Of a stretch of DNA of 49,503 nucleotides, positions 319 to 33,936 are shown piece after piece. Under the pieces are notes generated by a model, which saw nothing but the letters and a program-made list of their open reading frames with translations, ran no database searches and was not told where the DNA came from. Every line of letters starts with the position of its first letter. Positions within the stretch are counted from its first letter, which is position 1. This DNA comes from Anaerolineae bacterium (lineage in GTDB: Bacteria; Chloroflexota; Anaerolineae; 4572-78; J111): assembly GCA_016931895.1 (NCBI GenBank), contig JAFGDY010000007.1, positions 1 to 49,503 on the forward strand, given 5' to 3'. Position numbers and translations under genes: made by a program.

Positions 319-338
319 GTTTTGTCTCGAATCCAAAC

Positions 339-2090: not shown

Positions 2091-2236
2091 AACTGTTTCC
2101 TTGTTCAGGAGTGATTATCTACCATTTCAATGAGCCGCTGTTTTTTCTTCAACGGTATCTGCATTTTAGGCTAGCATTGGGTAAATGAGCAAAATCGCAG
2201 AGAGGCAGATTGGGGTGAATCCAATTCCAATTTGGC

Positions 2237-2893
2237 CTAAACAATGCTATTATCCAATCTGAAACCATAACCCCGCACTGTCACAATAAAGTTGTGCTCC
2301 GGGTCTATCTCGGCCAGCCGCTGGCGTAAGCGGCGGACCAGGGCGTCAATGGCGTCGTCGGTTACGCCGGCGGGGTCTTCATCCGGCCAGGACGCTTCCA
2401 CTACCTCGGCCCGACTGTAAACCTTGCCCGGTTTTTCCACCAGCAGCGCCAGCAATTGGTATTGCTGATTGCTGAGCGGGGGGCTGACCAACTGGCCGTG
2501 CACGTAAACTTGCCGTTCGGTTGGGTCAACGTGCAATCCCAGCCCTTTTTGGCCGGGCAAAGGCGCTGTGGCTTCGCTATCTACATAAAGCAGTTCCAGG
2601 CCGGGGGCCAGTTGAATTACATCGCCGTCGCTCAAGGGGTGGGGCTTAACCACCCGCTGTCCATTGATAAAAACCCCATTTTTACTGCCCGCGTCTTCCA
2701 GCACAAATTGCCCCCCCCGGCGATGCAGCACGGCGTGGGTGCGCGAAATCCAGCGCACCGGAATACTGACCGCGCAATCGGGCGAGCGGCCAATGCTGAT
2801 GACCGCCTCGGTATCGTGCAAAATCCATTGGTCTTTAATAATATCCCCTTCCCGCCAAATCAAAAGCGCCTGTTCAGTTTGTAGATTTTTCAT
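2237..2893 (-). CDS. FHA domain - winged-helix DNA-binding regulator (218 aa)
   Basis: A transcription factor likely to bind a phosphothreonine peptide and DNA. The FHA domain spans about residues 30-102 with the classic GR (35-36), SRTH (50-53) and SKNG (70-73) motifs. An OmpR/PhoB-type winged helix fills about 115-213, ending in the typical VRGYGFRL. The ATG at 2893 is preferred over a start 29 codons upstream because AGGAGG sits 5 nt before it. The gene is divergent from a Ser/Thr kinase gene starting at 3093, so the kinase is the obvious candidate to phosphorylate this regulator or its partner. Mycobacterial EmbR is a known FHA plus winged-helix regulator under a Ser/Thr kinase, but with the reverse domain order and a BTAD domain that is absent here. 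Confidence 0.88.
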   Translation of the reverse strand: MKNLQTEQALLIWREGDIIKDQWILHDTEAVISIGRSPDCAVSIPVRWISRTHAVLHRRGGQFVLEDAGSKNGVFINGQRVVKPHPLSDGDVIQLAPGLELLYVDSEATAPLPGQKGLGLHVDPTERQVYVHGQLVSPPLSNQQYQLLALLVEKPGKVYSRAEVVEASWPDEDPAGVTDDAIDALVRRLRQRLAEIDPEHNFIVTVRGYGFRLDNSIV

Positions 2894-3045
2894 ATTACCC
2901 TCCTGTTTGACAACTCCCGCTGAGTTGATAGATTTTTTGGGTAAGTCTACGTGCTTCTTGCCAACCTTGAATATCTTCAAAACGTTTGATTAAAGGCATT
3001 TCAGTTTCCTCGATAGCCGGATTTTCTTCTTGGTGAGAGATGAAA

Positions 3046-3051
3046 TATAAT
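3046..3051 (+). promoter_or_regulatory. Possible -10 box of the Ser/Thr kinase gene
   Basis: TATAAT lies 42 nt before the TTG start of the kinase, in the 199-bp gap between the two divergent genes. No convincing -35 box is seen at 16-18 nt upstream, so an activator may be needed. Weak call. Confidence 0.35.
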
Positions 3052-3092
3052 ATCTAAATACTCAATACCTGACACCTTTTACGGAGTATGCT

Positions 3093-4079
3093 TTGCCCAC
3101 AAATCTCCAACCTGGCGACATATTACGCGAACGATATAAAATTGCCGGCTTGATTGGGGCCGGGGGGATGGGCGCGGTTTATCTGGCCGATGATACCCGG
3201 CTGGTGGGACGTCAATGCGCCATCAAAGAAACTCAACTCCTGCCGACCCTTAATGAGAGGGTCATTCAAGCTGCGCGCAAACAGTTTTACCAGGAAGCCT
3301 CAACCCTGGCCCGACTGGACCATCCCGGCCTGCCCAAAGTGAGCGATTTTTTCTCCATTGATGAACGTGATTACCTGGTGATGGACTTTGTGCCCGGCCA
3401 GGATTTATTGGAAATCGTTAACCGCGTTCGCCGCGAGGGCCGGTTTTTGGACCAAATCACTGTTTTAGATTGGGCCGACCAATTGAGCGATACTCTGGCC
3501 TATCTGCACTCGCGCCAGCCGCCGGTGCTGCATCGTGACCTCAAGCCGGCCAATGTTAAATTGACCCCGGACAATCGCCTCAAACTGGTTGATTTTGGCC
3601 TGGTCAAACCGCTCGACCCCGATGACCCCAGCACCCTGACCGGCCTGCAAGGCGCGGGCAGCCTGCCCTACGCCCCCCTGGAGCAGTATGTTGACCATTT
3701 GGGCCATACCGATGCCCGTTCCGACCTGTACGCCCTGGGGGCCACGCTCTACCACCTGTTATCCGGTATCCAACCGACCAGCGCCCAGGAACGTTTCCTG
3801 GCGCCGGAATCTCTGCCGCCGCTGCGAGAAGTCAATCCTGATATTTCGCCCGGCGTGGCCGACGCCATTGCTGCGGCGATGGCCCTTCATCCCAAAGATC
3901 GTCCTTCTTCCATAACGCATTGGCGGCAAATGTGCCGCAGTTCCATCTCTACTGCGCCGATGGACTCCAGCCAAACCTCCAATCGTAATTGGCCCCTGTT
4001 TGTGCGCGAAAACTGGTGGCTGATTGGCCTGGCGATTGTTTTGCTGGCGGCGTCGTGGTGGGTGACGTTTGCTCAATGA
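3093..4079 (+). CDS. Membrane-anchored Ser/Thr protein kinase (328 aa)
   Basis: A Hanks-type (PknB-like) kinase that phosphorylates Ser/Thr on proteins. Visible motifs are the glycine loop GAGGMGAVY (22-30), the ATP-binding lysine in CAIKE (Lys45), HRDLKPANVKL (147-157, catalytic Asp149), DFGLV (167-171), and an APLE-like motif after the activation loop. The last 22 residues form one membrane helix (WWLIGLAIVLLAASWWVTF) with almost nothing beyond it, so the kinase is tethered but has no extracellular sensor domain. The TTG start is chosen because GGAG lies 6 nt before it; the ATG 5 nt upstream is in a frame that ends quickly. The gene is divergent from the FHA/winged-helix regulator and convergent with the GH3 gene. 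Confidence 0.93.
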   Translation: MPTNLQPGDILRERYKIAGLIGAGGMGAVYLADDTRLVGRQCAIKETQLLPTLNERVIQAARKQFYQEASTLARLDHPGLPKVSDFFSIDERDYLVMDFVPGQDLLEIVNRVRREGRFLDQITVLDWADQLSDTLAYLHSRQPPVLHRDLKPANVKLTPDNRLKLVDFGLVKPLDPDDPSTLTGLQGAGSLPYAPLEQYVDHLGHTDARSDLYALGATLYHLLSGIQPTSAQERFLAPESLPPLREVNPDISPGVADAIAAAMALHPKDRPSSITHWRQMCRSSISTAPMDSSQTSNRNWPLFVRENWWLIGLAIVLLAASWWVTFAQ

Positions 4080-4117
4080 AGGATCAGGTGGCCACTTCAG
4101 GCTGAAGGAAAATTCTT

Positions 4118-6931
4118 TCAACGGCCAGCCCTTGACGTTTGCCGATCTTCTCCTTTACTACTCAACCCCGCCGCAGCCAGGCTAAAGACAAAAACCAGCC
4201 CCCCTACCGCCAGCCGGCCTGCCCATAAATCCGGTTCTGCCAAAAGCCACTCCTCCGGCCGCAGCCAGCCCAGCCCGTAAAGCAGATAGGCCAGCAGGCC
4301 GCCAATCAAGGCCCACAAAGCCACGCGCGCCTGGCGAGGCAGTGGTTTGTAAAATTGTTGGCCCAGCCAGAAACCTGCCAGCCCGGCCAGGACAATGGCG
4401 CTCAAGGCTAACAGAAAGTCAAGGCCATCCACTTGACGGATGGTGGGGGAGGCAGGTGGGAGGATCTCATCGGTAGGTGGCATGATCGGAGTAGACGTGG
4501 GCGTGGGGGTTGGGGTGTCGAGGGTGGGCGGGGGGGGGTCGGTTGCGGTGGCAGCGGGCGGCGCGGTGGTCTCGGTGGGGGCGGGCGTGGGCGGCGCAGC
4601 AATTATAATCGAGATACTCTCAGCGGCGATTGCCGATCCCGCCACGGCCACAATCTCAACCTCACCTGGCTCGGTCAGGGTGAGTCTGGCTTCGGCCAGG
4701 CCCGCCGAGGTGGATGCAATTTCGGCGGCAAGCTGACGCTCGCCCAGCAGCGCCTTGATTTCTACCGGCGTATCGTCCGGGACAGGGTTGCCGTTATGAT
4801 CCTGGATAGGTCCCACTCGCACTCGCACCGACACGGGCGGTTTTCTGTTTTCCGGCAAAACCTCCAGCAGTTCTATGGCAATATTTTGGGTGGGATCGGG
4901 TGCCAGCACATCTACCAGTTCATAACCAATCCCTTCTACCGATACCGGCGCTGCGCCCGGCAGATCGGCCTCGCCAAAGAGGGCGCGCGCGGCCATTTCA
5001 AGGTGAGGCGTGATTTTGCTGTAAACGCCATAGTAGGCGGTCAGTTTGGTCACTTCGGTGGTGTCCAGGTAGTAAGGCGCGTTGAAGGCCAAAACCACGG
5101 TGGTTTTGTTTAGTAACGTGCCGCTTTCCTGGGCCAGAAAGAGCTTAAGGGCATCGGAATCGCTATAGCGGCTGGTATTCAAATCCAAAATGGCAAAAAT
5201 CAGCCAATCAGCCTGCTGGATATGTTGGCGGACTTCCTCCGCCGACAATTGAATGAGTGGGTTTTCGGTAGGTTCTGCCGGCGCTTCGGGGGGGGCAATG
5301 GTTCCAGCCAGGGCCAGTTTCAGTTCTGAAAAGGTGATTGTTCTGATCTGTTCCGGCTGAATTTGGCCGGTTGCGTTTGGCCCGTACAGGCGCAAGATTG
5401 TCTCTTCAATGGCCGCGTGGGGAATGAACAATTCCTGGGGCTGGCAATTATCGGTAAAACACTCCCGCGCCAGGCGAGCGTCAACAATCACCAGGATATT
5501 TTCGCCAGGCCGCGGCGGTTGGGGCAGGCGCAAGCGCAGCTCGTCGGGGGAGGGGTAGAGTAGGGTCAAACTCTGCCGGGCGATGGTGTTGATGGGAGTT
5601 TGGGATTGTCCGGCGATTTGGAGGGCCTGGGTTGGATCGGTGTTGAGGGCGTCGAGATTGAGCTGCGGGTAGAGTTTGAGCTTGGTTTGCAAGATACGGG
5701 CCACTGCCGCGTCTACCTGGGCGGCAAAGGTGGGATTGCGGGCGTATTCGGTGCGGAAGAAAAAGATAGTGTCTTTGATATTAGCAAACTGATCGCTCCA
5801 GATGGATTTTAAATCGAATTGGACCAGGCTCAACACATCGTTTCCGGCCAGAAATGCTTCTTTGGCAATGCGGCGATGGGGAAAACTTTCCAGGGTGGGG
5901 TCAAAGTGTTTGCGTACGGCGGGCACGCCCAGGGCGTCGCTCACAATCAGCCCGCCTTCTTCATACCAGGGCGCAATTTCGGGCAGGCTGAGCAGGGTTT
6001 CCATGCCGGCGGCGTCAAAACTGATGGGCGCGGTGAACTGGCGGATGTCGCCCTGGAAGCCGCGATAACGAATATGGCTGGACATCAAAGCATCGGTTTG
6101 GCCCAGCAGGTCGTCTGGCAGAGCGGCAGTGACGTGGAAGAAGGGCGGCAACTCAATCCGACGCAATTCTTGCAACGACTTGTCTACTGTGGCCACCTCG
6201 TTATCGGGCAGGCGGTCGCTGCCGCCGTGGCCGGGAAAATGTTTGGCCACCGTGGCCAGGCGTCCCCGGCTACCCAGGTGCACCCCCCGAATGTAGGCCC
6301 GGCCCATCTGGCTCACCCAGTACGGGTCGCCCCCAAACACCCGGATGCCAATGTCGCCCTGGCCGGTAGGACGCGGGGCGTGCAAAACATCCAAGCTGGG
6401 GCCAAGCAGCAGGTTGACGCCCATCGCTGCTAACTCCTCGCCCACAATCTGGCCCACTGCTTCGGCATTGGCTGTGTCCCAGGTGGCCCCAATGGCCATT
6501 TGACCGGGGATAGGCGTTACCCCGCCGGTAACGCGGGTGTAGGGATAACCGTCGCCCTCGTGGTCAAGGGCCACAAAAAGAGGCAGGCCGTTGGTGTTAA
6601 AGGCGGTGGTTTTGAGGGCATTGGCCAGTTCGGCTATCTGGCGCGGGGCCGAGGCGTCGTTATTAAAGTTGCTGTTGGCGGTGAGCAAAATAACACCGCC
6701 CACTTTGTATTCGGTGATGAGCTTCCACACGTCAGTGTCCGGGTTGGCGCTGGCTCCCACAAAAGGCACCAGGAAGAGCTGCCCCACTTTGTCTTCCACC
6801 GACATCCGGCTCATGAGTTCGGCTACCTGGGCCTCGGTTGTTTGGGCGCGGGCGGCAGGAGCCGCAGCCGGCAGGGCCTGGAGCAGGCAAAGAATGGCAA
6901 AAATCAGGATTATCTGTTTGGCAGTCTGCAT
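4118..6931 (-). CDS. Glycoside hydrolase family 3 (NagZ-like) with C-terminal membrane segments
   Basis: A probable beta-N-acetylhexosaminidase or related GH3 enzyme, exported and membrane-bound. From the ATG at 6931 (ATG preferred over a TTG six codons upstream) a signal sequence ends near ARAQ (28-30). The GH3 TIM barrel follows: ALDHEGDGYPYTR (121-133, substrate-binding Asp123), AKHFPGHGGSDRLPDNE (229-245, NagZ-type loop) and LIVSDALGVP (328-337, likely nucleophile Asp332). A second alpha/beta domain with a deacylase-like or Ig-like region follows, then a Thr/Pro-rich linker (about 765-820) and three predicted membrane helices at the C-terminus. At about 937 aa it is far longer than cytosolic NagZ (about 340 aa), and the membrane tail is unusual. 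It could release GlcNAc from peptidoglycan or from extracellular chitin-like polymers. Confidence 0.87.
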   Translation of the reverse strand: MQTAKQIILIFAILCLLQALPAAAPAARAQTTEAQVAELMSRMSVEDKVGQLFLVPFVGASANPDTDVWKLITEYKVGGVILLTANSNFNNDASAPRQIAELANALKTTAFNTNGLPLFVALDHEGDGYPYTRVTGGVTPIPGQMAIGATWDTANAEAVGQIVGEELAAMGVNLLLGPSLDVLHAPRPTGQGDIGIRVFGGDPYWVSQMGRAYIRGVHLGSRGRLATVAKHFPGHGGSDRLPDNEVATVDKSLQELRRIELPPFFHVTAALPDDLLGQTDALMSSHIRYRGFQGDIRQFTAPISFDAAGMETLLSLPEIAPWYEEGGLIVSDALGVPAVRKHFDPTLESFPHRRIAKEAFLAGNDVLSLVQFDLKSIWSDQFANIKDTIFFFRTEYARNPTFAAQVDAAVARILQTKLKLYPQLNLDALNTDPTQALQIAGQSQTPINTIARQSLTLLYPSPDELRLRLPQPPRPGENILVIVDARLARECFTDNCQPQELFIPHAAIEETILRLYGPNATGQIQPEQIRTITFSELKLALAGTIAPPEAPAEPTENPLIQLSAEEVRQHIQQADWLIFAILDLNTSRYSDSDALKLFLAQESGTLLNKTTVVLAFNAPYYLDTTEVTKLTAYYGVYSKITPHLEMAARALFGEADLPGAAPVSVEGIGYELVDVLAPDPTQNIAIELLEVLPENRKPPVSVRVRVGPIQDHNGNPVPDDTPVEIKALLGERQLAAEIASTSAGLAEARLTLTEPGEVEIVAVAGSAIAAESISIIIAAPPTPAPTETTAPPAATATDPPPPTLDTPTPTPTSTPIMPPTDEILPPASPTIRQVDGLDFLLALSAIVLAGLAGFWLGQQFYKPLPRQARVALWALIGGLLAYLLYGLGWLRPEEWLLAEPDLWAGRLAVGGLVFVFSLAAAGLSSKGEDRQTSRAGR

Positions 6932-6990
6932 ACCCCCATGATACTCCAAGCCGGTCTGTGCGCCAAATAAGTGGTCGGTTGGGAGAGAGG

Positions 6991-7218
6991 TCAGGGGCCG
7001 GGAAAGATTTGCCGCTCAAACCCCGATTCCTGTTCTGTGCTTCCCGTTAACGTGGGCAGCACCTGAGCGCCTGGACGGCTGGTCGCATTGCTAAAAATAG
7101 TTATCCCCGAACCGGCCAGCATGAGCAGGAGCAGGGCGGTTAAAACCAGCCGCCACAAAACAGATTGCCAGGTTAATGGCATGCTGGCCAAGGAGGGTTG
7201 GTTTAGGTTGTTAACCAT
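6991..7218 (-). CDS. Small single-pass membrane protein (75 aa), hypothetical
   Basis: The product has a short polar N-terminus, one strong membrane helix (about residues 22-43, VLWRLVLTALLLLMLAGSGI) and a polar C-terminal tail of about 30 residues. It lies 59 bp upstream of the GH3 gene on the same strand, so it is probably the first gene of that transcript. The ribosome binding site is weak (AAGAG about 9 nt upstream of the ATG). I do not recognise the family. Position and composition make it more likely real than not. Confidence 0.5.
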   Translation of the reverse strand: MVNNLNQPSLASMPLTWQSVLWRLVLTALLLLMLAGSGITIFSNATSRPGAQVLPTLTGSTEQESGFERQIFPGP

Positions 7219-7480
7219 GAGCGGACTCTTTTGGAAATTATCCTGAGATTAATTTGAAGCCGACACTTTCCGTAAAGATGATAACCATGTCATTTCGACC
7301 GAAGGGAGAAATCTCCTGAAAACCGTACCGTATCGGCGGTTGACGCAAATCTTCTTCATGGAAGAATCCTACCATACCCTGCCAGATTCTTCCGGCCCCC
7401 AAACCCATATCAGGCTGACGATCCGGCTGACGGTTGGGCGACGGCTAAACGTCGGGTTTGTTTGAGTCGGGCAATACCCC
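7219..7480. other. Intergenic region with REP-like arm and short palindromes
   Basis: No gene is seen in this stretch. At 7289-7316 there is GTCATTTCGACCGAAGGGAG followed by AAATCTCC. It resembles one arm of the dispersed palindromes of the GTCATTGCGAG type, of which a full copy is at 37180-37253. A second short palindrome, TTCTTC-ATG-GAAGAA, follows near 7350-7366. The stretch ends at the iron operon promoter. Confidence 0.5.
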
Positions 7481-7508
7481 TTGACAGTTTTGGAAACAGT
7501 GGTATAAT
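7481..7508 (+). promoter_or_regulatory. Sigma-70-type promoter of the iron operon
   Basis: TTGACA (7481-7486) and TATAAT (7503-7508) are both perfect and are separated by 16 bp. Transcription would begin near 7515, directly at the palindrome 7516-7537, so a protein bound there would block initiation. Confidence 0.82.
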
Positions 7509-7515
7509 AAACTAC

Positions 7516-7552
7516 AAATTTAGTCTAGGCTAAATTTTTATTTAGTCTTAAA
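7516..7552. promoter_or_regulatory. DtxR/MntR-like operator palindrome and second half-site
   Basis: AAATTTAG (7516-7523) and CTAAATTT (7530-7537) form a perfect 8-bp inverted repeat around TCTAGG. The core TTTAGtCTAGgCTAAA resembles known DtxR/IdeR/MntR family operators (TTAGGNTAGCCTAA type). A degenerate second copy, TTTAGTCTTAAA, follows at 7541-7552. The position at +1 of the promoter and the DtxR-type product of the first gene suggest autoregulation by iron or manganese. Confidence 0.72.
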
Positions 7553-7583
7553 TAATTTTTTTGATAAATGAGGATAAAAACCA

Positions 7584-8615
7584 ATGTATGACCCATTAAT
7601 TTATCTCCTGATCGCTGCCCTTTTGGCCGGAGCCGGCTGGTTGCTCTTTTGGCCGGAGCGTGGCTTCTTCTGGCGCTGGCAGCGAGCGCAGAAAATGACC
7701 GAACGGGTGCTGCGCGAAGATGCGCTCAAGCACCTGCATAAATGCGAGCGGCATCATCGCCAGGCTACGGTGCAAAGCATTGCCGGAGACCTGCAAATTA
7801 CCGTTGACCAGGCCGCTAACGTGCTGGCCACCATGCAAGCGCATGAATTATTACGCCTGGAGGGAGACGAGATTCATCTCACCCCCCAAGGACGGGATTA
7901 TGCTCTGCATATCTTGCGGGCGCATCGTTTGTGGGAACGTTATTTGGCCGATGAAACCGGCTTTGCCGAAGCCGAGTGGCACGGCCAGGCCGATTTTTAC
8001 GAACATACCCTGTCGCCGGACGCGGCCGATGCTTTGGCCGCCCAGTTGGGACATCCCATTTACGACCCGCACGGCGACCCCATCCCCGCGCCCGGCGGCG
8101 AGTTGGTGTTGCCCGAAAGCCAACCCCTGACCGCTCTGAGTGTTGACGAGCAGGCCCGGATTGTTCACCTGGAAGATGAACCGGAAGCCGTTTATGCCCA
8201 ACTGGTGGCCGAAGGACTTCATCCCGGCCAGGAAATCCGCCTGCTGGAGCAATCGCCGCGGCGGGTGCGGTTTTGGGCCGGGGGCGATGAACACGTGCTG
8301 GCCCCGGTTGTGGCGGCCAATATTTCGGTGAGAGCATTGCCCCAAGAGCCGGTGATTGAAGAATGTTGCCCCGAACGCCTGAGCGCGCTCAAACCCGGTG
8401 AGCAGGCCCGCGTATTGGATATTTCCCAGGCTTGCCGCGGGTTGGAACGGCGTCGTTTTCTGGACCTCGGCATCCTGCCCGGCACGCTTGTTGAGGCCGA
8501 GTTCGCCAGCCCCGGCGGCGACCCCACCGCTTACCGCGTGCGCGGCGCCCTTGTTGCTTTGCGTCAAGGGCAAGCTGAGATGATCAATATTACCCGCCGG
8601 CAGGAGGTGGCCTGA
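7584..8615 (+). CDS. Membrane-anchored DtxR-type metal regulator with FeoA domains (343 aa)
   Basis: A metal-dependent regulator fused to FeoA. Domains in order: one N-terminal membrane helix (about 4-23, PLIYLLIAALLAGAGWLLFW); a DtxR-like winged helix (about 36-98, with ATVQSIAGDLQITVDQAANV as the helix-turn-helix); the DtxR dimerisation/metal region (about 100-165, EHTLSPDAADAL and a PIYDPHGDPIP motif); a first SH3/FeoA-like domain (about 170-250); and a second, clear FeoA domain (about 263-340, LDLGILPGTLVEAE). Two adjacent cysteines (EECC) lie between the last two domains. It overlaps the feoB GTPase gene by one base. It may act both as repressor at the upstream palindrome and as the FeoA partner of FeoB. 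The membrane anchor is unusual for a DtxR protein. Confidence 0.85.
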   Translation: MYDPLIYLLIAALLAGAGWLLFWPERGFFWRWQRAQKMTERVLREDALKHLHKCERHHRQATVQSIAGDLQITVDQAANVLATMQAHELLRLEGDEIHLTPQGRDYALHILRAHRLWERYLADETGFAEAEWHGQADFYEHTLSPDAADALAAQLGHPIYDPHGDPIPAPGGELVLPESQPLTALSVDEQARIVHLEDEPEAVYAQLVAEGLHPGQEIRLLEQSPRRVRFWAGGDEHVLAPVVAANISVRALPQEPVIEECCPERLSALKPGEQARVLDISQACRGLERRRFLDLGILPGTLVEAEFASPGGDPTAYRVRGALVALRQGQAEMINITRRQEVA

Positions 8616-9460
8616 TGAACGTCAATATACCCAAACCTTCAGCTACGGCTTGCGAAACTTGCCCGGTCCACCACGCCGCCAATTTGCATAAACTGGGGGT
8701 GAACATGGATGATTGGGATTTTGTAGTGGCCCTGGCCGGTAATCCCAATACGGGCAAAAGCACGGTGTTTAATGCCTTAACCGGCCTGCGCCAGCATACG
8801 GGCAATTGGCCGGGCAAAACAGTGGGTCGAGCCGAAGGCGGTTTTGTGTATGGCGACCATCGTTATAAGTTGGTTGACCTGCCCGGAACCTACTCTTTGC
8901 TCTCAACCAGCGTTGACGAGGAAATTGCCCGCGACTTCATCCTTTTTGGCCGGCCGGATGTAACCGTGGTGGTGGTGGATGCCACGCGCCTGGAACGAAA
9001 TTTGAACCTGGTTTTGCAAGTTCTGGAAATCACCGACCGGGCCGTGGTTTGTTTAAACTTGATGGATGAAGCCCGGCGGCATAAATTGCAAGTTGACGAA
9101 CGTCGCCTGGCCCGCGATCTGGGCGTGCCGGTGGTACCTACGGCGGCGCGTTACAACAAAGGATTGCCCAACTTGCTGCAAGCAATGAGTGAGGTGGCAA
9201 CCGGCCGGTTTGTGTGCCGGCCGCACCGCATCAAAAACGAGCCGTCGGCCTTAAAGCAGGCGGTGGCCGCGTTAGTGGCCCAAATTGAAGCCCTTCATCC
9301 CAATTTGCCCAATGCGCGGTGGGTGGCCCTGCGCCTGCTTGATGGCGACCCCCGTATTGCCGAAGCCTTGCGCAAAGGCGAATTGGGCGACCTGAGTCGC
9401 GGTCAACCTGACCAAGCCGAAGGAGCTAATTTGACCTTAACCTTGGAGGCAGCCTCATGA
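8615..9460 (+). CDS. feoB: FeoB GTPase domain as a separate protein (281 aa)
   Basis: The cytoplasmic G-protein half of the ferrous iron transporter FeoB. Visible G motifs: G1 [10 protein letters not shown] (41-50), G3 [10 protein letters not shown] (88-97), G4 NLMDEARR (148-155) and a G5-like [11 protein letters not shown] helical region, the FeoB GDI-like domain, fills the C-terminal third. An N-terminal CETCPVHH (13-20) gives a Cys-x2-Cys-x2-His cluster that standard FeoB lacks. The ATG overlaps the stop of the regulator gene (TGATG), and its own stop overlaps the permease start (ATGA). In most bacteria this domain is fused to the membrane part; here the split falls in the linker. Confidence 0.93.
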
Positions 9461-10893
9461 GTGGAGTTAAACAAGCTACTGCTAAAGACATTCTTAATAC
9501 CGCCGAGTCGCTCCGCTGGCAGATTGGGGGCAATATTCACGAACATTTAGTCGAGGCCATTTACACCGATGCCGCCCAGATTGCCGACCGCGCCGTTACC
9601 CGCCCCGACACGCCGCCCCGCTTTGACCTGGATCGGGCCATTGACTGGCTGGTGACCAGCCGGTTATGGGGATTTCCGTTGATGCTGCTGTTGTTTACCC
9701 TGGTTTTCTGGCTAACCATTGAGGGGGCCAATTATCCTTCTCAATTTTTGGCCTGGATTCTGCTTGACACGGTTCACCCGGTTTTAAAGAATCTGGCGGC
9801 CACAATAGGTGTGCCCTGGTGGTTGGACGGCCTGCTCCTGGATGGCATGTACCTGGCCACGGCTTGGGTGGTTAGCGTGATGCTGCCGCCGATGGCTATT
9901 TTCTTTCCCCTGTTCACCCTGCTGGAAGATTTTGGCTATTTGCCGCGGGTGGCCTTTAACCTGGATAATGTTTTTAAAAAATCTGGGGCGCACGGCAAGC
10001 AGGCCCTGAGCATGATGATGGGTTTTGGCTGCAATGCGGCCGGAGTTATTGCTACCCGCGTGATTGACAGCCCGCGCGAACGGCTCATTGCCATCATCAC
10101 CAATAATTTTGCCCTGTGTAACGGGCGCTGGCCCACCCAAATCCTCATCGCTACCATTTTTATTGGGGCGCTGGTTCCGGCCTATTTGGGCGGGCTGATT
10201 TCGGCCCTGGCAGTGGTGGGGATTGCGGTTTTGGGGGTATTGTTGACCTTTGTGGTGTCGTGGGCGCTCTCGCGGACCTGGCTGCGGGGTGAAGCGTCAA
10301 CCTTTAGCCTTGAGTTGCCGCCCTACCGCCCGCCGCGTATCTGGCAAACTATCTACACCTCTCTGATTGACCGCACCATGTTTGTGCTGTGGCGGGCCAT
10401 TGTTTTTGCCCTGCCGGCCGGGGCGGTCATCTGGCTCATTGCCAATATTCATCTGGGGGGGAGCAGCGTTACCGAATACCTGATTGACTTTCTCAATCCC
10501 CTGGGTTTTTTGATTGGCTTGAACGGGGTGATTTTGGTGGCCTACATTGTGGCTATCCCGGCCAACGAAATTGTTATTCCCACCGTGTTGATGCTCACGG
10601 TGCTGACCGCCGGTCTCAAGGATGTTGGCGCCGGCGCAGGGGTGATGTTTGAGCTTGAATCCAAGGCCGGGGTGATGGCCATTTTTAGCGCAGGGGGGTG
10701 GACGTTGCTGACCGCCGTCAACTTGATGTTATTTAGCCTGATTCATAATCCCTGCAGCACCACCATTTATACCATCTATAGGGAAACCGGCAGCGGAAAA
10801 TGGACGACTGTGGCGGCTTTGCTGCCCCTGGCGATGGGTTTTATAGTGACCTTTGTAGTGGCTCAGGTTTGGCGGCTGGTAGCCGGGGGGTAA
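9457..10893 (+). CDS. feoB: FeoB membrane permease half (478 aa)
   Basis: The Fe(II)-translocating membrane part of FeoB, in the inner membrane. After about 65 soluble residues come 8-10 membrane helices. Diagnostic FeoB Gate motifs are present: [20 protein letters not shown], then [14 protein letters not shown] (the position where many FeoB have a PFMSC-like motif), and [13 protein letters not shown] near the C-terminus. The Cys in the first Gate repeat is GCNA rather than GCxVP. Together with the preceding 281-residue GTPase it gives a total length like ordinary FeoB (about 760 aa). It overlaps the GTPase gene by 4 bp and ends 1 bp before the convergent NACHT/cyclase gene. Confidence 0.93.
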
Positions 10894-10894
10894 T

Positions 10895-13800
10895 TTATTT
10901 TTGACGGATAACGCGGTACGCTTCTAGCTCAACTCCTACCTTCTTTTTGATATAGATCGGGTCAAGGGGTTCGGTCAAAAAGGCGTCACCGACCAGTTCG
11001 CGGGTATAAGTGTCAAGGTAAATTTCGCTTTCGTTGCGCCCTTTAATGGCCATTTTGCTCAATTTGCTAGACATATTGACGGCCGGGCCAACCATAGTTG
11101 TTTCAGAACCAACCGTGCCGGTTTTGACCTTGCCGGTGCTGATGCCAATCCCCATGCCGGTGTTGGCAAATTCTGGGCTTTCGCCTTTCCAGCGGTCGCG
11201 CAGGCCAGAATAGGCCTCGCGCATTCTGAGAGCCGCCATTAAAGCCGATTTGGTGGCGGTGATTTGATCATCATTACTGTGTTGGCCGGGCGTGTTGCCA
11301 AATACCCCCATCACGCTATCGCCCAGGCTTTTATCTATGGCGCCACCGGATTGAACGATGATGGCCGACATAGTGAGCAGATATTCGTCCAGAAAAGCCA
11401 CCATTAGCTCCGGGCCGATGGAATGGGTGAGAAAGGTGGAGCCGTGAATGTCGCCCATCACTACGGTTACTTTATCCTGGTGGGTCAGTTCGGCAATGTA
11501 GCCGGGGTCGTAGTAACGGTCCAGGGCGGCGCGACGGCCAATCTGGCGGTCGTGCAGCAGGCGCAGGTCCGAGGTTTCGGCCAGGCTGTGGGCAATAGAA
11601 GGATATTTCTGCACCACCATGTCAAAATCTTCGCGGCTGATGGCTAACAGGCGGGTGGGGGTAACGGTGCGGATGGTGGCCGTGCGAGGGACGGCCCGCA
11701 GCAGGGCAATCTCGCCAAAAAAGTCACCCGGCCCTAACCGATTGATGACGCCCACGGATTGTTCCCTCATATCCGGGGCCAGCACTTCCACTTCGCCCAT
11801 TTCGATAACGTAGAAGGTGTCGCCCATTTCACCCATGTGGAAAACAATTTGCCCGGCCCCATACTCGGCCACCTTAATGCGATTGGCCAGCAAAACGCTC
11901 TGTTCCAGCGTCATTTTGCTGAGGATGGGAATATTTTCCAGCACCCGGACCACGCCCGTGGCCAGCGCCTTTTCTAAAATGGAGAGCTGGGTTCTGGCTT
12001 CGGAATAATCGGGTTTTAGCTTTAGGGCCGAGCGGAAAGACTCGCGGGCCGGTTCGTAGTCGCGCAGAATCTTTTGAATAGTGCCTAGGTTATAAAAGTG
12101 GTGCGCGTTGGCCGGTTCAAGCTGGGTGGTGGCCTTAAAAACGGTCAAGGCTTCAACATATTTACCCTGGTCGTGGTAAGTGATGCCCAGTTGGTTATAG
12201 GCGTCCACAAAATCGGAGCGCAGCCGGATGGCTTCTTCCAGGTGCACAATGGCCCGTTCGTATTGGTCCACCTGGCGGTAGAGCGAGCCGAGTTCATACT
12301 GAATTTCGGCGGAGCCGGGATTTTCTTGGGCCGCCATGTGCAGGTAAGCGAGCGCTTCGGGATAACGGCCCAGTTGGCGGCAGGCCAGGCCCACACTGAA
12401 GAGCAGGGCAAAATGCTGCTGTAGCGGCAGGCAGCGCTCAAAGCTTTGCAGGGTCAGGGTAATATCTTCGCCGGAGTTGGCCAAACATTGCGCCGCTAAC
12501 CAGATGCGGGCGTAATCATTATTTTCCCCCAAGATATTTGAGTAGAGGCCGGCTTTATCGTGGGCAATGCCATAGAGCAGGATGATGGTGCCCTGCCAGC
12601 GGCGGCGGCTTTCGGGGGTATTAACCCGAATCTCTATATCCTGTTCCTGATCGCGTTGGGCCAGGGCGGCAAAAAATTCCTGATAAGTTTGGTGGGCAAA
12701 CTCTATCCAGGCCCGGTCGTCGGGGTGGCGAATCAAGCCGCTGTGTTTGATCTCTTCATCAACGTCTTCTGAGGTGATGTATTGCACCTCAACCCGTTCG
12801 CCGGGCGTGGACCTGGCCCGATATTGGACCAATTCTTGCGAGATAAGATCCGCCCACCGGCTGCGCGGAAAGGCCCAAACCTCTTCTTCTTGCATGGCCA
12901 GGCCCAGTTTAGCCAGCACGTTGCGGCGCAAGCGCAGCGGCACCTGGGATTTGGAGCGGCCAAAAATTTTCCACCATTCGCTGTCGGTTCGTTCCAGCAG
13001 GTTGTCGGTAAATACTTCAAAAAGGATTCCCCGGTTTTTGGGCAAGGCTTCGTCGCTGTTTTTGGCAATTTGAGCAAACATGTAAAGGGCCAGGGGAGTT
13101 TGGGCCAGGTCTTCCAGTTGGGGGTCGCTGTAAATTTCTTTGGCCACTTTGCGGCCCTGTTCGGCGCGCAAATAGTTTACCAAAAAGGCTTCAATATCTT
13201 CTCCGGCCAGCCGTTGTAACATGGCGGTGCGAAAACCCTGTAAAGAGGTGTAGTCTTGCAAGCGACAGGAAAGAACAAAGTGGTATTGGGCGTATTTACG
13301 GATAAAGTGATTCAATACCGGGCGGGTATTGTGTTGAAACGGCATTTCGTTGAGGCCGTCCATTAGAAAGAGGATGGAATGGATGGAACTGTGGGTAGGG
13401 TCCTGGCCGGTCAGCAGCACTTCAATATCGGCCTCGGTTTCAAACTCGTAAATTTCATAACTGCGAAAAACATTGAGGATGAGGCTTTCAATGGACTTGC
13501 CGGGATTGAGGGCGTTAAGTTTAATGTAAATTGGCAGAACAATCGGTTCCGGCGAGGTGCTCAGGATGTGTTCGGCCTGTTCGGCCATATCCAGCGTGAG
13601 CCGGCGCAAGACGGTGGTTTTTCCGGCGCCGGCGTCGCCCAGGATCACGGTGCGGTAATCGCGGGCAATCAAATCGCGGACATCGGTGGGGGTTTCTGGG
13701 GTAAGGCTGGAGCCTTCTTGGGCAAAACGGCGCAGGGGGGAAATAAATTCTTGCGGGTCGTGGGCGCGAGCTTCCAGGCGGCGTTGGGCAATTTCGGTGA

Positions 13801-14815
13801 TAATATCCAGCACGGTCGGCGCTTTTTGGTTGATGAGGTTGAGCGAGCCGGGGGTAAAGGCCACAAATTTACACGGCTGGATGGTGCGCACCGTAGCGGT
13901 GCGAGGCACTTTTTTGATCAGGGCAATCTCGCCAAAAAAGTCGCCCTTACCCAATTTTGAAACAACCATTTCGTTGCCCAGGGCATCGGGCACCAAAACT
14001 TCCACCTCGCCGCTGACAATCACGTAACATTTATCGCCGTGGTCGCCCCGCTTAAATATAATTTGATTGGCGGCATGAGGTTCGGCGTGGGGGAAGAGGG
14101 GGGCCAGTTGGCGCAGTTCGTCGTAGGTGAGGGTGTGGCGTGGGGGGAAGGGGGTGATGGTTTCGGTGGCGCGTTTGGCCTTGAGCGGTAAATACAAATC
14201 TTTCCAGATGGCGTAATCCGGGTCTTCGATGATGCGGCGCAAATAGCGGCGGATGGGCGGCAAATTGCTGTAGGGGTCGGTGGACTCGAGGGCTTCTTTG
14301 CCGTTGGCGCCCGGTTGGGCCGGGGCAAAGCTAAAAAAGTGCTCTTTCCAACTCCAGAAGTCTGGGGCGTTCCGGGCCATTTGGGTTACAAAACCAGACG
14401 TGCCCCAGATGACCACCGGCTGGGCGATCATGGTCAGCCGGTCGCGCAAAAAGTTGAGCAATCTGATAAACCTGTCCCGCTGTTCGGTATTGAATTTTTC
14501 TATGCCGTACACAAAGATGACAATAGATTTATATTTGCCGGTCAGTTCCAGGTTTTTGAAGCGGGAGTGGTCGGTGAGTTCGGTCAGGCTGCGCACCAGG
14601 TTTGTATCTCGCACCCCCACTTCAAAATTAAAAAGGTAGATGCCTTCGGCGTCCAGCCGGCGGCGGAAGTAATCCAGCAAGCGGGCGCGCAGGCTCAGGT
14701 CGTCGCACTCGGCCACGGCCAGGCCGCCCATATTGCTCATGCGCAGCATGGCCAGCAACATTCTAATTTCGTCGGGAAAACGAGAGGTAAATTCGTCCAC
14801 CTCTGGCGAGATCAT
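10895..14815 (-). CDS. cNMP-binding / NACHT / TPR / cNMP-binding / class III cyclase protein (1306 aa)
   Basis: A very large cytoplasmic signalling protein. Domains in order: a P-loop-like N-terminal domain without a Walker A motif (about 1-165; a Walker B-like YKSIVIFVYG at 95-104); a cyclic-nucleotide-binding domain (about 236-345, with the phosphate cassette FFGEIALIKKVPRTATV); a NACHT NTPase (about 385-620, Walker A LGDAGAGKTT 392-401, Walker B ILFLMDGLNE 481-490) with a helical region to about 795; about four TPRs (805-945); a second cyclic-nucleotide-binding domain (about 958-1075, FFGEIALLRAVPRTATI); and a class III nucleotidyl cyclase domain (about 1113-1280) with metal-binding Asp in VMGDIHGST (1122) and LGDSVM (1166). 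The usual transition-state Arg is Lys in VNMSSKL. It overlaps the upstream AAA ATPase gene by 4 bp. The role is unknown; a STAND-type sensor making or reading cyclic nucleotides is the reasonable inference. Confidence 0.9.
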   Translation of the reverse strand: MISPEVDEFTSRFPDEIRMLLAMLRMSNMGGLAVAECDDLSLRARLLDYFRRRLDAEGIYLFNFEVGVRDTNLVRSLTELTDHSRFKNLELTGKYKSIVIFVYGIEKFNTEQRDRFIRLLNFLRDRLTMIAQPVVIWGTSGFVTQMARNAPDFWSWKEHFFSFAPAQPGANGKEALESTDPYSNLPPIRRYLRRIIEDPDYAIWKDLYLPLKAKRATETITPFPPRHTLTYDELRQLAPLFPHAEPHAANQIIFKRGDHGDKCYVIVSGEVEVLVPDALGNEMVVSKLGKGDFFGEIALIKKVPRTATVRTIQPCKFVAFTPGSLNLINQKAPTVLDIITEIAQRRLEARAHDPQEFISPLRRFAQEGSSLTPETPTDVRDLIARDYRTVILGDAGAGKTTVLRRLTLDMAEQAEHILSTSPEPIVLPIYIKLNALNPGKSIESLILNVFRSYEIYEFETEADIEVLLTGQDPTHSSIHSILFLMDGLNEMPFQHNTRPVLNHFIRKYAQYHFVLSCRLQDYTSLQGFRTAMLQRLAGEDIEAFLVNYLRAEQGRKVAKEIYSDPQLEDLAQTPLALYMFAQIAKNSDEALPKNRGILFEVFTDNLLERTDSEWWKIFGRSKSQVPLRLRRNVLAKLGLAMQEEEVWAFPRSRWADLISQELVQYRARSTPGERVEVQYITSEDVDEEIKHSGLIRHPDDRAWIEFAHQTYQEFFAALAQRDQEQDIEIRVNTPESRRRWQGTIILLYGIAHDKAGLYSNILGENNDYARIWLAAQCLANSGEDITLTLQSFERCLPLQQHFALLFSVGLACRQLGRYPEALAYLHMAAQENPGSAEIQYELGSLYRQVDQYERAIVHLEEAIRLRSDFVDAYNQLGITYHDQGKYVEALTVFKATTQLEPANAHHFYNLGTIQKILRDYEPARESFRSALKLKPDYSEARTQLSILEKALATGVVRVLENIPILSKMTLEQSVLLANRIKVAEYGAGQIVFHMGEMGDTFYVIEMGEVEVLAPDMREQSVGVINRLGPGDFFGEIALLRAVPRTATIRTVTPTRLLAISREDFDMVVQKYPSIAHSLAETSDLRLLHDRQIGRRAALDRYYDPGYIAELTHQDKVTVVMGDIHGSTFLTHSIGPELMVAFLDEYLLTMSAIIVQSGGAIDKSLGDSVMGVFGNTPGQHSNDDQITATKSALMAALRMREAYSGLRDRWKGESPEFANTGMGIGISTGKVKTGTVGSETTMVGPAVNMSSKLSKMAIKGRNESEIYLDTYTRELVGDAFLTEPLDPIYIKKKVGVELEAYRVIRQK

Positions 14816-16185
14816 TCTAACTCCTTGACAAACTGATCATGGCCATTGGGCACCAAGAGGGTATTGCGGTATTCTATTTCCCATTCTTGTAAAAGTTCAG
14901 TGACTACGGGATGCACGTCAAACCAGCCTTTGCCGTTAGGATAGTATAACACGCATAACGATTCCAGGTGGCGCATATTCACATCGGCCCGGCTTTTGGT
15001 TTGTTTTACCCGGCGCAGCCATTGATAGTCTTCGTGTTCCAGCATGCGGTAATATTCGCTTTTGAGTTTATTTTTTTGAAACTGTAGCACATTGTGGGTG
15101 ATTTGGCTAACGCCGTATTCTTCACAATAAACGCTGCATCCCCGCACCACCCGGATCAGTTCGCGCAAAATGCCGCCGGTCATTTGAATGGCAGTTTCCA
15201 CCACGCCTTTGTCAAAGAGTTGGGGATGGACGCGGCGATAGATGATCTCGCGCAGGGTGTTCACGTCGGGCGAGCCGGTTGGTTCGGGCGCGCCGCCTTT
15301 GGTATGCACGCGAAACATGGGCATGTAGTGAACTTCCAGAAACTGGCCGATGTGTTTTGAGGCCGCGTCGTACAACAAAGAAATAGGGGCGGTGTAGATG
15401 GCGAAACAATCGAATGAGGCCAGGCTTTTAACGTGTTCTCTGAAAATGTTGAGCGCCGTATCAAGCGGCTGAATTTTGTCCAGGTCGTCAATGATCAGCA
15501 GAATGTTTTTGCCGGTTACGGCAGAAACTTCGTAAATAATTTGGTTGATCAGGTTGATCAACTCTGGCACGTATTTGCGGATGCGCGTCCGAATTCCTTC
15601 GCGCACTTCACCTTCGCTTTTCAAACGCACGTCAATCAGGCGGATAAGACTGCCCAGGCCAAGTTCAAAGTCAAGGCCGGGATCGGTAAAGGGGATTGGG
15701 GAGGGCGTGGCGGGGCCGGGTTGGTAGAGCCAATCGTAGACCCGCCGGGCGGCGGAATCGTCAACCACGTAGCCCAGGCGTTCCATTTCTTTGTAGATGC
15801 CCAGAATGATAGAGAGGGCAATATCTACAAATTCAATGTTATAAAGCCCCACCACCTCGCTTACGGAGTATTGAATGGGTAAAAAATTTTGCCGCAAAAA
15901 TTCCGCGCGACCAACGCCGGTTTCAATGAGATTGGCCAACCGAAAGAGTTCGGTGCTTTTGCCACAGCCGGTGTGGCCCACAAACAGGAATTTGGTGTTA
16001 TTGGGGGGAGCAGTTCTGGCCCCGGCTTCCAACTCGCCCATCAGCGACTTTAATTCCGAGTGAAAGCCACGATTAACGTAAAAACGCTCCATATCTTTGC
16101 CCTTGAGCGGGCGTAGATAGTTGGTATTCGCATAGGCATCAATAAAACTTTGGGCCGCGCCTGGATATTGTTCAACATCTGGCAT
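14812..16185 (-). CDS. AAA/STAND-type P-loop ATPase, partner of the NACHT/cyclase protein (457 aa)
   Basis: A cytoplasmic ATPase. Walker A is FVGHTGCGKST (68-78) and Walker B is NILLIIDDLDK (227-237). The C-terminal part is helical and ends with a winged-helix-like region carrying YYPNGKGWFDVHPVV. There is no membrane segment. The ATG at 16185 is preferred to one 15 codons upstream because AGGAG lies 7 nt before it. It is the first gene of the operon: its 3' end overlaps the 1306-residue protein by 4 bp (ATGA), implying coupled translation and probably a complex. The specific family is not recognised with certainty; it resembles ATPases found beside STAND proteins in conflict or signalling loci. 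Confidence 0.82.
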   Translation of the reverse strand: MPDVEQYPGAAQSFIDAYANTNYLRPLKGKDMERFYVNRGFHSELKSLMGELEAGARTAPPNNTKFLFVGHTGCGKSTELFRLANLIETGVGRAEFLRQNFLPIQYSVSEVVGLYNIEFVDIALSIILGIYKEMERLGYVVDDSAARRVYDWLYQPGPATPSPIPFTDPGLDFELGLGSLIRLIDVRLKSEGEVREGIRTRIRKYVPELINLINQIIYEVSAVTGKNILLIIDDLDKIQPLDTALNIFREHVKSLASFDCFAIYTAPISLLYDAASKHIGQFLEVHYMPMFRVHTKGGAPEPTGSPDVNTLREIIYRRVHPQLFDKGVVETAIQMTGGILRELIRVVRGCSVYCEEYGVSQITHNVLQFQKNKLKSEYYRMLEHEDYQWLRRVKQTKSRADVNMRHLESLCVLYYPNGKGWFDVHPVVTELLQEWEIEYRNTLLVPNGHDQFVKELE

Positions 16186-16251
16186 AACTGACTCCTGAAA
16201 AAGATGATGCTTGGTGAATGGCCAAAACAATCATTAATCTTATGTTAAAAA

Positions 16252-20081: not shown

Positions 20082-20131
20082 AGTAACCAGGTTTTTGTCA
20101 CCCTGATATTTTATTTTTGCCGGAGACTTCT

Positions 20132-22045
20132 ATGGCTGCCTCACAACCATCTGCCAGTGGCATTCCGCAAACAGTCCATCCACCATCTCTAAGCCGCCAG
20201 GGGTCTGCTGATATTTCCCCCGAGTTACAAGCCGTTTTACAAAAGATCGTTGATGATGTGGTTAAGACCCTGGGCTGTGTGGGGGCCATGGTTGCGCCTT
20301 TAGAGCCGGGTGATTGTTTAAGGGTCCGCGCTTATGCGGTTGATATTGAGTTTGGCCTGTTGGAGCATTTAGAGAAAACCCTGGGCGTAAGTATGCTTGG
20401 CCCTCAATCCGTGGCCTACCTGGGTGATGAACGGTTCAAGAATAATCTGAGTGTGCGGGCGGTAAAAGGGGCGAACGGCTCGCCCGGCGTGTTGGTGTCG
20501 GATAGTTTATATGACCTGTTTCGACCGGTGGTAGATAGGGCGCTGTCGGACCTGGCCCAACGCCTGACCAATATCCGGCAGGTGGCGGCTATTCCCTTTT
20601 TCCTTGAAGACGAAGTGGTGGGTAATTTGTTTGTGGCCGCCCGGCAAGAGTTTTCTGAGCGTGATATTGACTTTCTGATAGCGTTTGGCCGGCAGGCAGC
20701 CATTGCCATCCAGAGTCAAAGTCGCTTGTCCAAAATCCAGGCCCTGGAGCAGGTGAGCCTGGCCCTGCAAACGCACATCACCGACGAGACCCAAGTTTTA
20801 CAGACCATTGTTAACGCCGTAGTTCAGATATTGGGTTATGCCGGAGCAATGGTGGCGCCCCTGGAGGCCAATAATACGCTGCCGGTGCGGGCTTATGCGG
20901 TTGATATTGCGCCTGACCTCTTTGAACGGTTGGAAAAACAGTTGGGGGTGAGCATGCTTGGCCCTCAATCTGTGGCCTACCTTGATGACGAACGTTTTGC
21001 AGATAATCTGAGCGTGCGAGCGGTGAAAGGGGTGGCCGGACCGCCGGGCATTGTTATTTCTGATAGCCTGTATGATCTCTTTCGACCGGTGGTCAACAAA
21101 TCGTTGGCCGACCTGGCCCAACATTTAACCGGCATCAAACAAGTAATTGCCATTCCCTTTTTCCTTGAAAATGAGGCAGTGGGCAATTTATTTGTGGCCA
21201 CGCGCAAGCCCAAATTCTCCCAAACCGAACAGGAGATGTTGCGCACCTTTGGACAGCAGGCGGCGGTGGGCATTCGTAATGCCCGGCTCTATCGTAAGGC
21301 CGAGGAACAACAGCAGATTGCCCAAATGTTTGGCAAAATGGCCTTCAGCGCCGCAGCCTATATTCACACGCTGCGCAATCACGTGGGGGTGGCCCTGAAT
21401 TATTTGCAATTAGTGGAAATGATCCCCAGTTTGTCTGAAGAGCGACGAGCGCGGGCGTTTCAGTCGGCCCCTGAAGTGATTGCTCATTTAAATGAAGCGG
21501 TTGAGGTTTTGGATAACCTGCACAAGCCCTGGCGCCAGCCTGAGGATGTGCTCACAAATGTTAATGACTGTTTGGCCCGCGCCCTGGGTAAAGTGTTCCC
21601 AGAAGCCATGTTCAGCTCAGACCAGGCGGCAGTGGAAGATGAACGGGGTATCGTGGTGCATCGTTTGTTATCGCCAGATTTACCCCCTCTCAAAACAATG
21701 CCCGATATGTTGACCGAAGCCTTTAGAGTGTTGATCAGAAACGCCGTCGAGGCCATTGAGAGAAAAGACGGCGGCGGCGAGATTTGGGTTGAGAGTCGTT
21801 TGGCCAAAGGCGGCGTGATGCAAATATCAATTCGAGATAACGGCATTGGCATCAAGCCCGAAAACCTGGCCAAGATTTTTGAAATGGGCTGGTCAACCAA
21901 AGAGGGCCGGGGTATGGGCTTTGGCCTCTTCTGGACCAGGGATTATGTGGAAGGCTTGGGCGGCAGCGTTAACGTGGAAAGTGTTTGGCAAGAAGGCGCC
22001 ACTTTCTGCATTCATCTCCCTATGTTGGCGGCCAAACAAGATTAA
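20132..22045 (+). CDS. Double-GAF sensor histidine kinase, cytosolic (637 aa)
   Basis: A two-component sensor without membrane segments. Two GAF domains (about residues 30-190 and 220-390) are close copies sharing GVSMLGPQSVAYL, NLSVRAVKG and SDSLYDLFRPVV; the similarity extends to the DNA. A dimerisation region follows with a probable phospho-acceptor His in YIHTLRNHVG, then a HATPase domain: NAVEAIERKDGGGEIWVE (N box), RDNGIGIKPENLAKIFEMG (G1) and GRGMGFGLFWTRDYVEGLGG (G2). The ATG at 20132 has GGAG 6 nt upstream and is preferred to the TTG five codons earlier. No response regulator gene is adjacent, so it is an orphan. The ligand is unknown; a chromophore or redox signal is possible. Confidence 0.9.
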   Translation: MAASQPSASGIPQTVHPPSLSRQGSADISPELQAVLQKIVDDVVKTLGCVGAMVAPLEPGDCLRVRAYAVDIEFGLLEHLEKTLGVSMLGPQSVAYLGDERFKNNLSVRAVKGANGSPGVLVSDSLYDLFRPVVDRALSDLAQRLTNIRQVAAIPFFLEDEVVGNLFVAARQEFSERDIDFLIAFGRQAAIAIQSQSRLSKIQALEQVSLALQTHITDETQVLQTIVNAVVQILGYAGAMVAPLEANNTLPVRAYAVDIAPDLFERLEKQLGVSMLGPQSVAYLDDERFADNLSVRAVKGVAGPPGIVISDSLYDLFRPVVNKSLADLAQHLTGIKQVIAIPFFLENEAVGNLFVATRKPKFSQTEQEMLRTFGQQAAVGIRNARLYRKAEEQQQIAQMFGKMAFSAAAYIHTLRNHVGVALNYLQLVEMIPSLSEERRARAFQSAPEVIAHLNEAVEVLDNLHKPWRQPEDVLTNVNDCLARALGKVFPEAMFSSDQAAVEDERGIVVHRLLSPDLPPLKTMPDMLTEAFRVLIRNAVEAIERKDGGGEIWVESRLAKGGVMQISIRDNGIGIKPENLAKIFEMGWSTKEGRGMGFGLFWTRDYVEGLGGSVNVESVWQEGATFCIHLPMLAAKQD

Positions 22046-26093: not shown

Positions 26094-26358
26094 AAAAACC
26101 AAACTGCCTGAGTGCAGATACCCCCAAAACAGCAATTATCAGGCATCAAGGATTAATTGTCAATTCTGATGGCTCTGCCCCAATAAGGTAGGGGCAGACA
26201 TTGTCCTGTTCCTACCGCCAAAATTTTAGGGCGCACCCATTCTGATTAAAGGGGGCGCGAGGATAACCCTACCCGGTTTTGCCACTTCTCGCCTTTTGCT
26301 TATGATAAGGCTTTGTTTGCCCTCCGTGGCTTAATTTCTAAGTAAAAACCGGCAAGGT
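26094..26358. other. Intergenic region between two divergent membrane protein genes, with two hairpins
   Basis: TCTGCCCC (26174-26181) pairs perfectly with GGGGCAGA (26191-26198). About 35 bp further on, GCGCACCC and GGGGGCGC (about 26231-26258) form an imperfect second hairpin. Neither has a T-run. No reading frame of note and no strong promoter are seen. Confidence 0.45.
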
Positions 26359-33907: not shown

Positions 33908-33936
33908 AAGGGTTTGTTGCCCTGTTGAGGGTTGTT

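Follow-up and report, generated by a model that had tools for sequence, protein, structure and literature searches.

The gene described here as P1 is a core gene, vertically inherited, in a group of Chloroflexota, and it encodes in one chain a NACHT NTPase, TPR repeats, two cyclic-nucleotide-binding (CNB) domains and a C-terminal domain homologous to class III cyclases. The reading that we favour, at slightly less than an even chance, is that P1 is a STAND-gated cyclase with product feedback, tuned by a pair of one active and one inactive AAA+ module, the active one being encoded by the adjoining gene P2. Both genes were analysed in a stretch of 49,503 nucleotides from an Anaerolineae bacterium (the window), where they lie on the minus strand and overlap by 4 bp (Table 1), an arrangement already given in a sequence-only reading of the same DNA and in agreement with the open reading frames. 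The same 4-bp overlap occurs in genomes G405 and G088. For P2, an in-frame TTG at 16230, upstream of the ATG, is a possible alternative start.

Table 1. Features of the P1/P2 gene pair in the window (residue numbers refer to P1).
Feature	Position	Strand	Description	Basis
P1 gene	10895..14815	-	1306 aa, ATG start	ORF call
P1 whole chain	10895..14815	-	order AAA-like / CNB / NACHT / TPR / CNB / class III cyclase	
N-domain, residues 1-200	14216..14815	-	predicted AAA+ fold without Walker A/B; APDFW motif	
CNB1, residues 235-355	13751..14113	-	phosphate-binding cassette 291-309	Pfam, motif
NACHT NTPase, residues 385-560	13136..13663	-	Walker A 393-400, Walker B 483-490	Pfam, motifs
TPR repeats, residues 800-945	11981..12418	-		Pfam
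CNB2, residues 965-1085	11561..11923	-	phosphate-binding cassette 1030-1048	Pfam, motif
Class III cyclase homology domain, residues 1110-1300	10916..11488	-		Pfam, CyaB profile, motifs
K1251	11063..11065	-	Lys at transition-state arginine position	alignment to solved cyclases
P2 gene	14812..16185	-	457 aa from ATG; upstream gene of pair	ORF call

The domains that the sequence-only reading had recognized in P1 are borne out by Pfam profiles and motifs. Two cNMP_binding domains (6.6e-43), both above cut-off, and TPRs (4.8e-24) are found together with NACHT (1.3e-7) and Guanylate_cyc (8.9e-10), each above cut-off, so neither the cyclase nor the CNB domains had been misread. The phosphate-binding cassettes of CNB1 (GDFFGEIALIKKVPRTATV) and CNB2 (GDFFGEIALLRAVPRTATI) are intact, with the GE and the R kept in both, and CNB2 matches PKA/PKG chains. 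The RTA form of this cassette tolerates cGMP, as is known from work on PKA and PKG; since both P1 cassettes have the RTA form, cAMP and cGMP are both candidate ligands. The NACHT domain has both Walker A (GDAGAGKT) and Walker B (FLMDGLNE), and the C-terminal sensor repeats are the TPRs. Among relatives, CNB2 is weaker in genus g236 and CNB1 is missing from the G088 homologue.

The active site of the cyclase domain, which matches the profile of CyaB (3r5g; E 3.4e-31), was read by assigning six canonical positions by alignment to solved cyclases. The metal-binding aspartates D1122 and D1166 are invariant in an alignment of seven sequences and in ten family members, and both are present even in G088, the most distant member. 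The base-specifying pair, which for ATP consists of Lys with Asp or Thr, is K1162/T1240 in the window, with an AC-type lysine four residues ahead of the second metal aspartate, and the transition-state positions are occupied by N1247 and K1251 (N1247-x3-K1251). Most class III cyclases have an Asn-Arg pair at these positions. In P1 this pair is altered, Asn being retained and Arg replaced by Lys, whereas other cyclases in the window genome retain the Arg. Lysine is found at position 1251 in the window, in 10 of 10 family members and in all order members covering the site, and within the family (ten members) the K/T pair, the Asn and the Lys are strictly kept. Other members vary: those of f93 have Arg for the base-specifying Lys, which resembles R142 of EaPycC at that single position only (PMC11224242), the G011 homologue has His at position 1251, and the G088 homologue keeps Arg there, with Gln for the base-specifying Lys and Val for the Asn. 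Because Asn is kept but Arg is Lys, the C-terminal domain is filed, from its sequence, as a class III cyclase homologue by descent, and because the Arg-to-Lys change is fixed, catalysis is not to be assumed. The earlier picture of producer, switch and receivers in one chain is a fair reading, right as to the domains, although its producer cannot be taken as catalytic. The uniform Lys, the invariant metal aspartates and purifying selection together suggest an alternative site that is stably maintained rather than one in decay. The class III enzyme Ma1120 has Ala for the Asn and is nevertheless active (PMC4215837), so cyclase activity in P1 is possible.

The first ~200 residues of P1 matched no family model. 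Their AlphaFold2 model (pLDDT 74) has a fold in which beta and alpha elements alternate; among solved structures it is matched best by the AAA+ domains of RFC, ORC, TnsC and Rubisco activase (VIA Z about 11 over about 150 residues). In the alignment the P-loop and the Walker B acidic residue are absent. As modelled, a degenerate AAA+ domain makes up the first ~170 residues; this domain had been overlooked in the sequence-only reading. With regard to the Arg finger that nSTAND2 operons have in both modules, no Arg directly ahead of the last strand is conserved throughout the N-domain alignment. P2 has no Pfam match above cut-off. It shows the conserved motifs GHTGCGKST and LLIIDDLDK, and its AlphaFold2 model (pLDDT 72) gives VIA Z values of 12-14 to ORC/Cdc6/TnsC and 11 to CED-4; the motifs and this moderate-confidence model assign it to the AAA+ ATPases of the Orc1/Cdc6-TnsC-STAND clade. 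Since the N-domain lacks a P-loop and P2 matches Orc1/Cdc6, TnsC and CED-4, the two genes appear to encode one AAA+ module that is active and one whose NTP site is eroded, on models of moderate confidence. Homology between the two by profile comparison was rejected (hhalign E 0.61, no signal), their kinship being at fold level only.

P1 is present in 12 of 12 family genomes with 66-84% identity (two copies are cut at contig ends), and its domain chain is therefore not due to chance. The same domain order is found in two further families, in which the G413, G415 and G416 copies are cut at contig ends and G419 is without most of the N-domain; L021, L022, L023, L024 and L025, apparently the same as G405, G400, G401, G404 and G418, were counted once. 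Across the order, 21 of 25 genomes have the N-domain and 11 of 25 have P2, at strong scores and adjoining P1. In samples of the phylum, P2 was found in 11 of 301 genomes and the N-domain in 13 of 400. At many Chloroflexota loci with P2 relatives the neighbouring gene has the N-domain (APDFW), mostly fused to TPRs only; conversely, all loci fetched by the N-domain search include a P2-type gene, which adjoins the N-domain gene at most of them and lies about 4 kb away at two. A scan of 84,980 species gave relatives in Chloroflexota only, by exact seeds that are shallow beyond this phylum. All P1 domains evolve under purifying selection, with dN/dS of 0.03-0.12 in the nearest pair, values limited by synonymous saturation. 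The TPR and CNB2 are among the slowest-evolving parts, and between the window and G405 the cyclase ranks with the less conserved domains.

P2 is dispensable to the retention of P1. A tRNA-Lys, a 113-aa gene and P2-P1 are common to the window, G405, G400 and G404, and a GHMP kinase (mevalonate-kinase-like) is also at the locus in the first three. P2 was not found in 7 of the 12 family genomes, all of which keep P1. Five of these are syntenic-site absences (G409, G406, G410, G402 and G407), with the tRNA-Lys and the 113-aa gene adjoining P1; in G408 and G403, P1 stands in different surroundings, again without P2. The partner ATPase of the sequence-only reading thus adjoins P1 in the window, but it is facultative. 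Most order genomes are draft assemblies, and the P2-less G417 is a single contig. In G409, weak matches to P2 and to the N-domain lie on a different contig, and a partner may act in trans there. On the P1-core tree, whose root is uncertain owing to long branches, the P2 label changes three times; about three losses would be the simpler reading, because both distant outgroups (G011 and G088) have P2. Relative to the window, the ratio of N-domain to NACHT identity takes values of 1.05-1.38 where P2 is present and of 1.03-1.29 in P2-less family members; it is 0.91 in G417 and 0.68 in G411, whose P1 has about 200 added N-terminal residues with several hydrophobic stretches, and in G419 the N-domain is deleted. 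A functional coupling of the N-domain to P2 is partly supported by these sequences and by the P2-type genes near N-domain genes, because the N-domain has diverged or been deleted in two of the three inferred loss lineages (G411; G417/G419). Relaxation of the N-domain after P2 loss is partly borne out, being seen in G411, G417 and G419 and absent in six full-length P2-less family members; this P2-less clade keeps a well-conserved N-domain, which would therefore act without an adjacent P2.

In the gated cyclase that we favour, TPR contacts in resting P1 would hold the NACHT core and keep the chains apart, and binding of a cognate ligand to the TPR, probably an endogenous one, and of ATP to the NACHT would trigger an assembly that brings the C-terminal cyclase domains into pairs. 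Class III active sites are formed only between two cyclase domains. The product would most likely be cAMP, because of the Lys1162/Thr1240 pair, and cyclic nucleotide could bind CNB2, which directly precedes the cyclase, and CNB1, which directly precedes the NACHT, giving product feedback. It may also act on the many other CNB proteins of the genome: the window genome has 13 matches to class III cyclases and 26 to CNB domains, so product and receivers are not insulated and the self-contained loop of the sequence-only reading finds no support. The inactive N-terminal AAA+ domain would be the ancestral docking site for P2, which, as an active AAA+ ATPase, would tune P1, probably in a mixed assembly; in several lineages P2 would have been lost and P1 would run alone. 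We infer P1 assembly, cyclase activity, the identity of the ligand, the sign of the feedback and the P1-P2 contact, and the model is supported by the intact domains and motifs, by their order-wide conservation in the genomes read, by purifying selection on all P1 domains and by the partial coupling of the N-domain to P2. Parallels are known for its steps: in CyaB2, cAMP on the enzyme's own GAF domains activates its cyclase (PMC4411481); in TPR-STANDs, NBD-TPR contacts autoinhibit and multimers form on activation (PMC6468293); and nSTAND2 joins an active and an inactive STAND with variable effectors (PMC8195603). Against it, the Lys replacing the transition-state Arg may cripple catalysis, and the site changes in f93, G011 and G088, the weaker CNB2 of g236, the lack of CNB1 in G088 and the well-conserved N-domain of the P2-less clade also count against the model.

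In an alternative that we regard as unlikely, yet with some weight, the cyclase domain would be a weak or dead pseudo-cyclase serving as an NTP sensor and P1 a NACHT scaffold reading the products of other cyclases via its CNB domains. It would account for a Lys found in all order members read while the genome's other cyclases have Arg, for a base-specifying residue that differs among families and for the lower conservation of the domain between the window and G405; inactive cNMP cyclase domains are also reported in conflict systems (PMC7159879). However, the metal aspartates are invariant as far as G088, the other assigned residues are strictly kept in the family, and class III enzymes without a canonical transition-state residue can work, as Ma1120 does (PMC4215837). 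An obligate two-gene complex, with P2 as the motor and P1 as its regulated output, is very improbable: the 4-bp overlap in the window, G405 and G088 and the P2-type genes near N-domain genes throughout the phylum suit it, but P1 persists in seven P2-less family genomes, five of them with clean syntenic absence, and about three losses are placed on the tree. Obligate pairing was rejected on account of the P2-less loci.

The sequence-only reading had also allowed for a conflict system. In a Pycsar- or STAND-type anti-phage device, the NACHT-TPR would detect infection, the cyclase would produce an alarm nucleotide and the response would be carried out by the CNB domains and P2. P1 residues 976-1300 are indeed matched by the PADLOC Pycsar cyclase model PDLC00734 (protein E 1.9e-24), and a part in immunity is predicted both for NACHT/TPR proteins and for active/inactive STAND pairs (PMC8195603, PMC7159879). 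We nevertheless consider this improbable, since P1 is kept in all family genomes searched, is inherited vertically across the order, and has a TPR, in the sensor position, and a CNB2 that evolve slowly. The window neighbours are a GH3 enzyme, an iron repressor-FeoA fusion, a split FeoB, the tRNA-Lys, the GHMP kinase, FtsY, ScpB and L9, with no TIR or membrane effector gene beside P1; in other genomes they include a response regulator, a solute-binding protein, an M24 peptidase, an aminotransferase, an ABC transporter, an FHA protein and a P450. A defence island was rejected, as the neighbours of the pair in the window, G418, G011 and G088 are housekeeping or metabolic. A mobile origin was likewise rejected: P1 and the N-domain had no match in 72,556 plasmids, and no P1 relative was found in viral contigs by an exact-seed scan, which excludes close relatives only. 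Four cyanobacterial plasmids carry distant P2-like ATPases. The tRNA-Lys was discarded as an integration site, the operon lying on the 5' side of the tRNA at a site common to several genomes. On present evidence, the P1 system is not mobile or island-type defence.

The modules and the pairing theme are known, and the P1 combination is undescribed in the open-access literature searched, in line with the sequence-only reading, which knew of no system with this exact order. One close theme is the predicted nSTAND2 two-gene operon (PMC8195603, Fig. 6C), likened to P1/P2 by description and not by sequence. Its two adjacent genes encode AAA+/STAND modules, one of them active and the other eroded at its NTP site, and variable modules are fused to the inactive one. 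The effectors described for it are for the most part GT4 or HEPN, and it is termed a mobile operon (PMC8195603), whereas P1 has CNB-NACHT-TPR-CNB-cyclase and is vertically inherited; the GT4 or HEPN effector, commonest in nSTAND2 but optional, is absent from P1 by Pfam. CyaB2 of Anabaena also has cyclic-nucleotide sensing on the N-terminal side of a class III cyclase within the same chain, but the sensors are GAF and not CNB, there is no NACHT, TPR or AAA+, and its activity has been shown (PMC4411481). Among TPR-sensor STANDs, MalT and PH0952 have the NTPase switch followed by a TPR sensor; the output of MalT is transcription activation, whereas P1 has a CNB and a cyclase past the TPR (PMC6468293). 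Full-length mammalian soluble adenylyl cyclase likewise unites class III catalysis and a predicted STAND P-loop region in a single polypeptide, but its two catalytic domains precede the STAND region and no CNB is described (PMC12802110). In Pycsar the cyclase is likewise the signal maker and a CNB the receiver, but the PycC cyclase and the TIR/membrane effector are in separate genes, and no such effector lies beside P1 (PMC11224242). For the pyrimidine-specific pocket of Pycsar cyclases, the relevant observations are the AC-type lysine of the window and the f93 Arg that resembles R142 of EaPycC at one position. Finally, the MoxR-vWA ternary conflict systems recombine NTPases, inactive STANDs, cyclases and cNMP-binding domains, including variants with cNMP cyclases or iSTAND; neither MoxR nor vWA is encoded here, and the P1 domain order was not found in the sections consulted of that source (PMC7159879).

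More tentatively than the gated cyclase itself, we propose an order-level Chloroflexota signalling hub, so far undescribed, in which NACHT assembly would drive an N-K cyclase whose product is sensed by the same protein at two CNB sites, with the active/inactive AAA+ pair in control. It would be an NLR-like bacterial protein with a cyclic nucleotide as its output and a physiological rather than an immune role. STAND/NACHT proteins are mostly treated as immune sensors. If this proposal is true, a core, vertically inherited NACHT protein that makes and reads a second messenger would be an immune-type switch working in ordinary physiology, and the coupling of NACHT to messenger would be testable within one purified chain. 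The N-K transition-state pair, order-wide, is a natural test of how far class III cyclases tolerate the loss of the arginine.

Beside P1 (the 1306-residue protein ending in the class III cyclase) the window carries Feo genes, in which an iron-dependent-repressor domain and FeoA form one fused protein, followed by FeoB as two overlapping genes, one for the GTPase part and the other for the membrane part. Elsewhere in the window, a single protein combines two near-alike GAF domains with a HATPase_c domain, and no histidine kinase dimerisation domain was matched in it by the Pfam search. Among the long open reading frames, those of 605, 897, 629, and 1078 residues had no Pfam match at a threshold of 1e-6; the last overlaps by about 235 bp a frame of 1026 residues, which carries a PMT mannosyltransferase domain. 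On contig C128 of the window's genome, the two tandem class III cyclase matches lie in a frame of 1440 residues, about 4 kb away from a CNB protein on that contig.

Location of the features described
Source	Coordinates	Feature
Window	7584-10893	Repressor-FeoA fusion and split FeoB
Window	20117-22045	GAF/HATPase_c protein
Window	24318-37017	Long open reading frames
G000:C128 (window's genome)	13202-14320	Two tandem class III cyclase matches
L124 (locus of G411)	341-4921	P1 relative
G409:C128	37031-37734	Weak matches to P2 and to the N-domain
L057 (Nostoc sp. C057 plasmid)	5300-8224	SAV_2336/P2-like fusion
L035 (Chloroflexota)	99-4535	Protein with P2-type AAA domain

The P1 relative of G411, a genome without P2 (the AAA+ ATPase overlapping P1), has about 200 additional, partly hydrophobic N-terminal residues preceding a strongly diverged N-domain. 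In G409, the P1 locus lacks P2, and the weak P2 match, located on a different contig, stands beside a weak match to the N-domain.

P2-like ATPases have been also found in other settings. In the Chloroflexota protein (1478 residues) the P2-type AAA domain forms the C-terminus, the region ahead of it having no Pfam match above the cut-off. Finally, in the plasmid of Nostoc sp. C057 a SAV_2336 N-terminal domain is fused in front of a distant P2-like ATPase, and the adjoining gene codes for a MoxR ATPase, an arrangement hinting that P2-type ATPases and MoxR systems may be connected.
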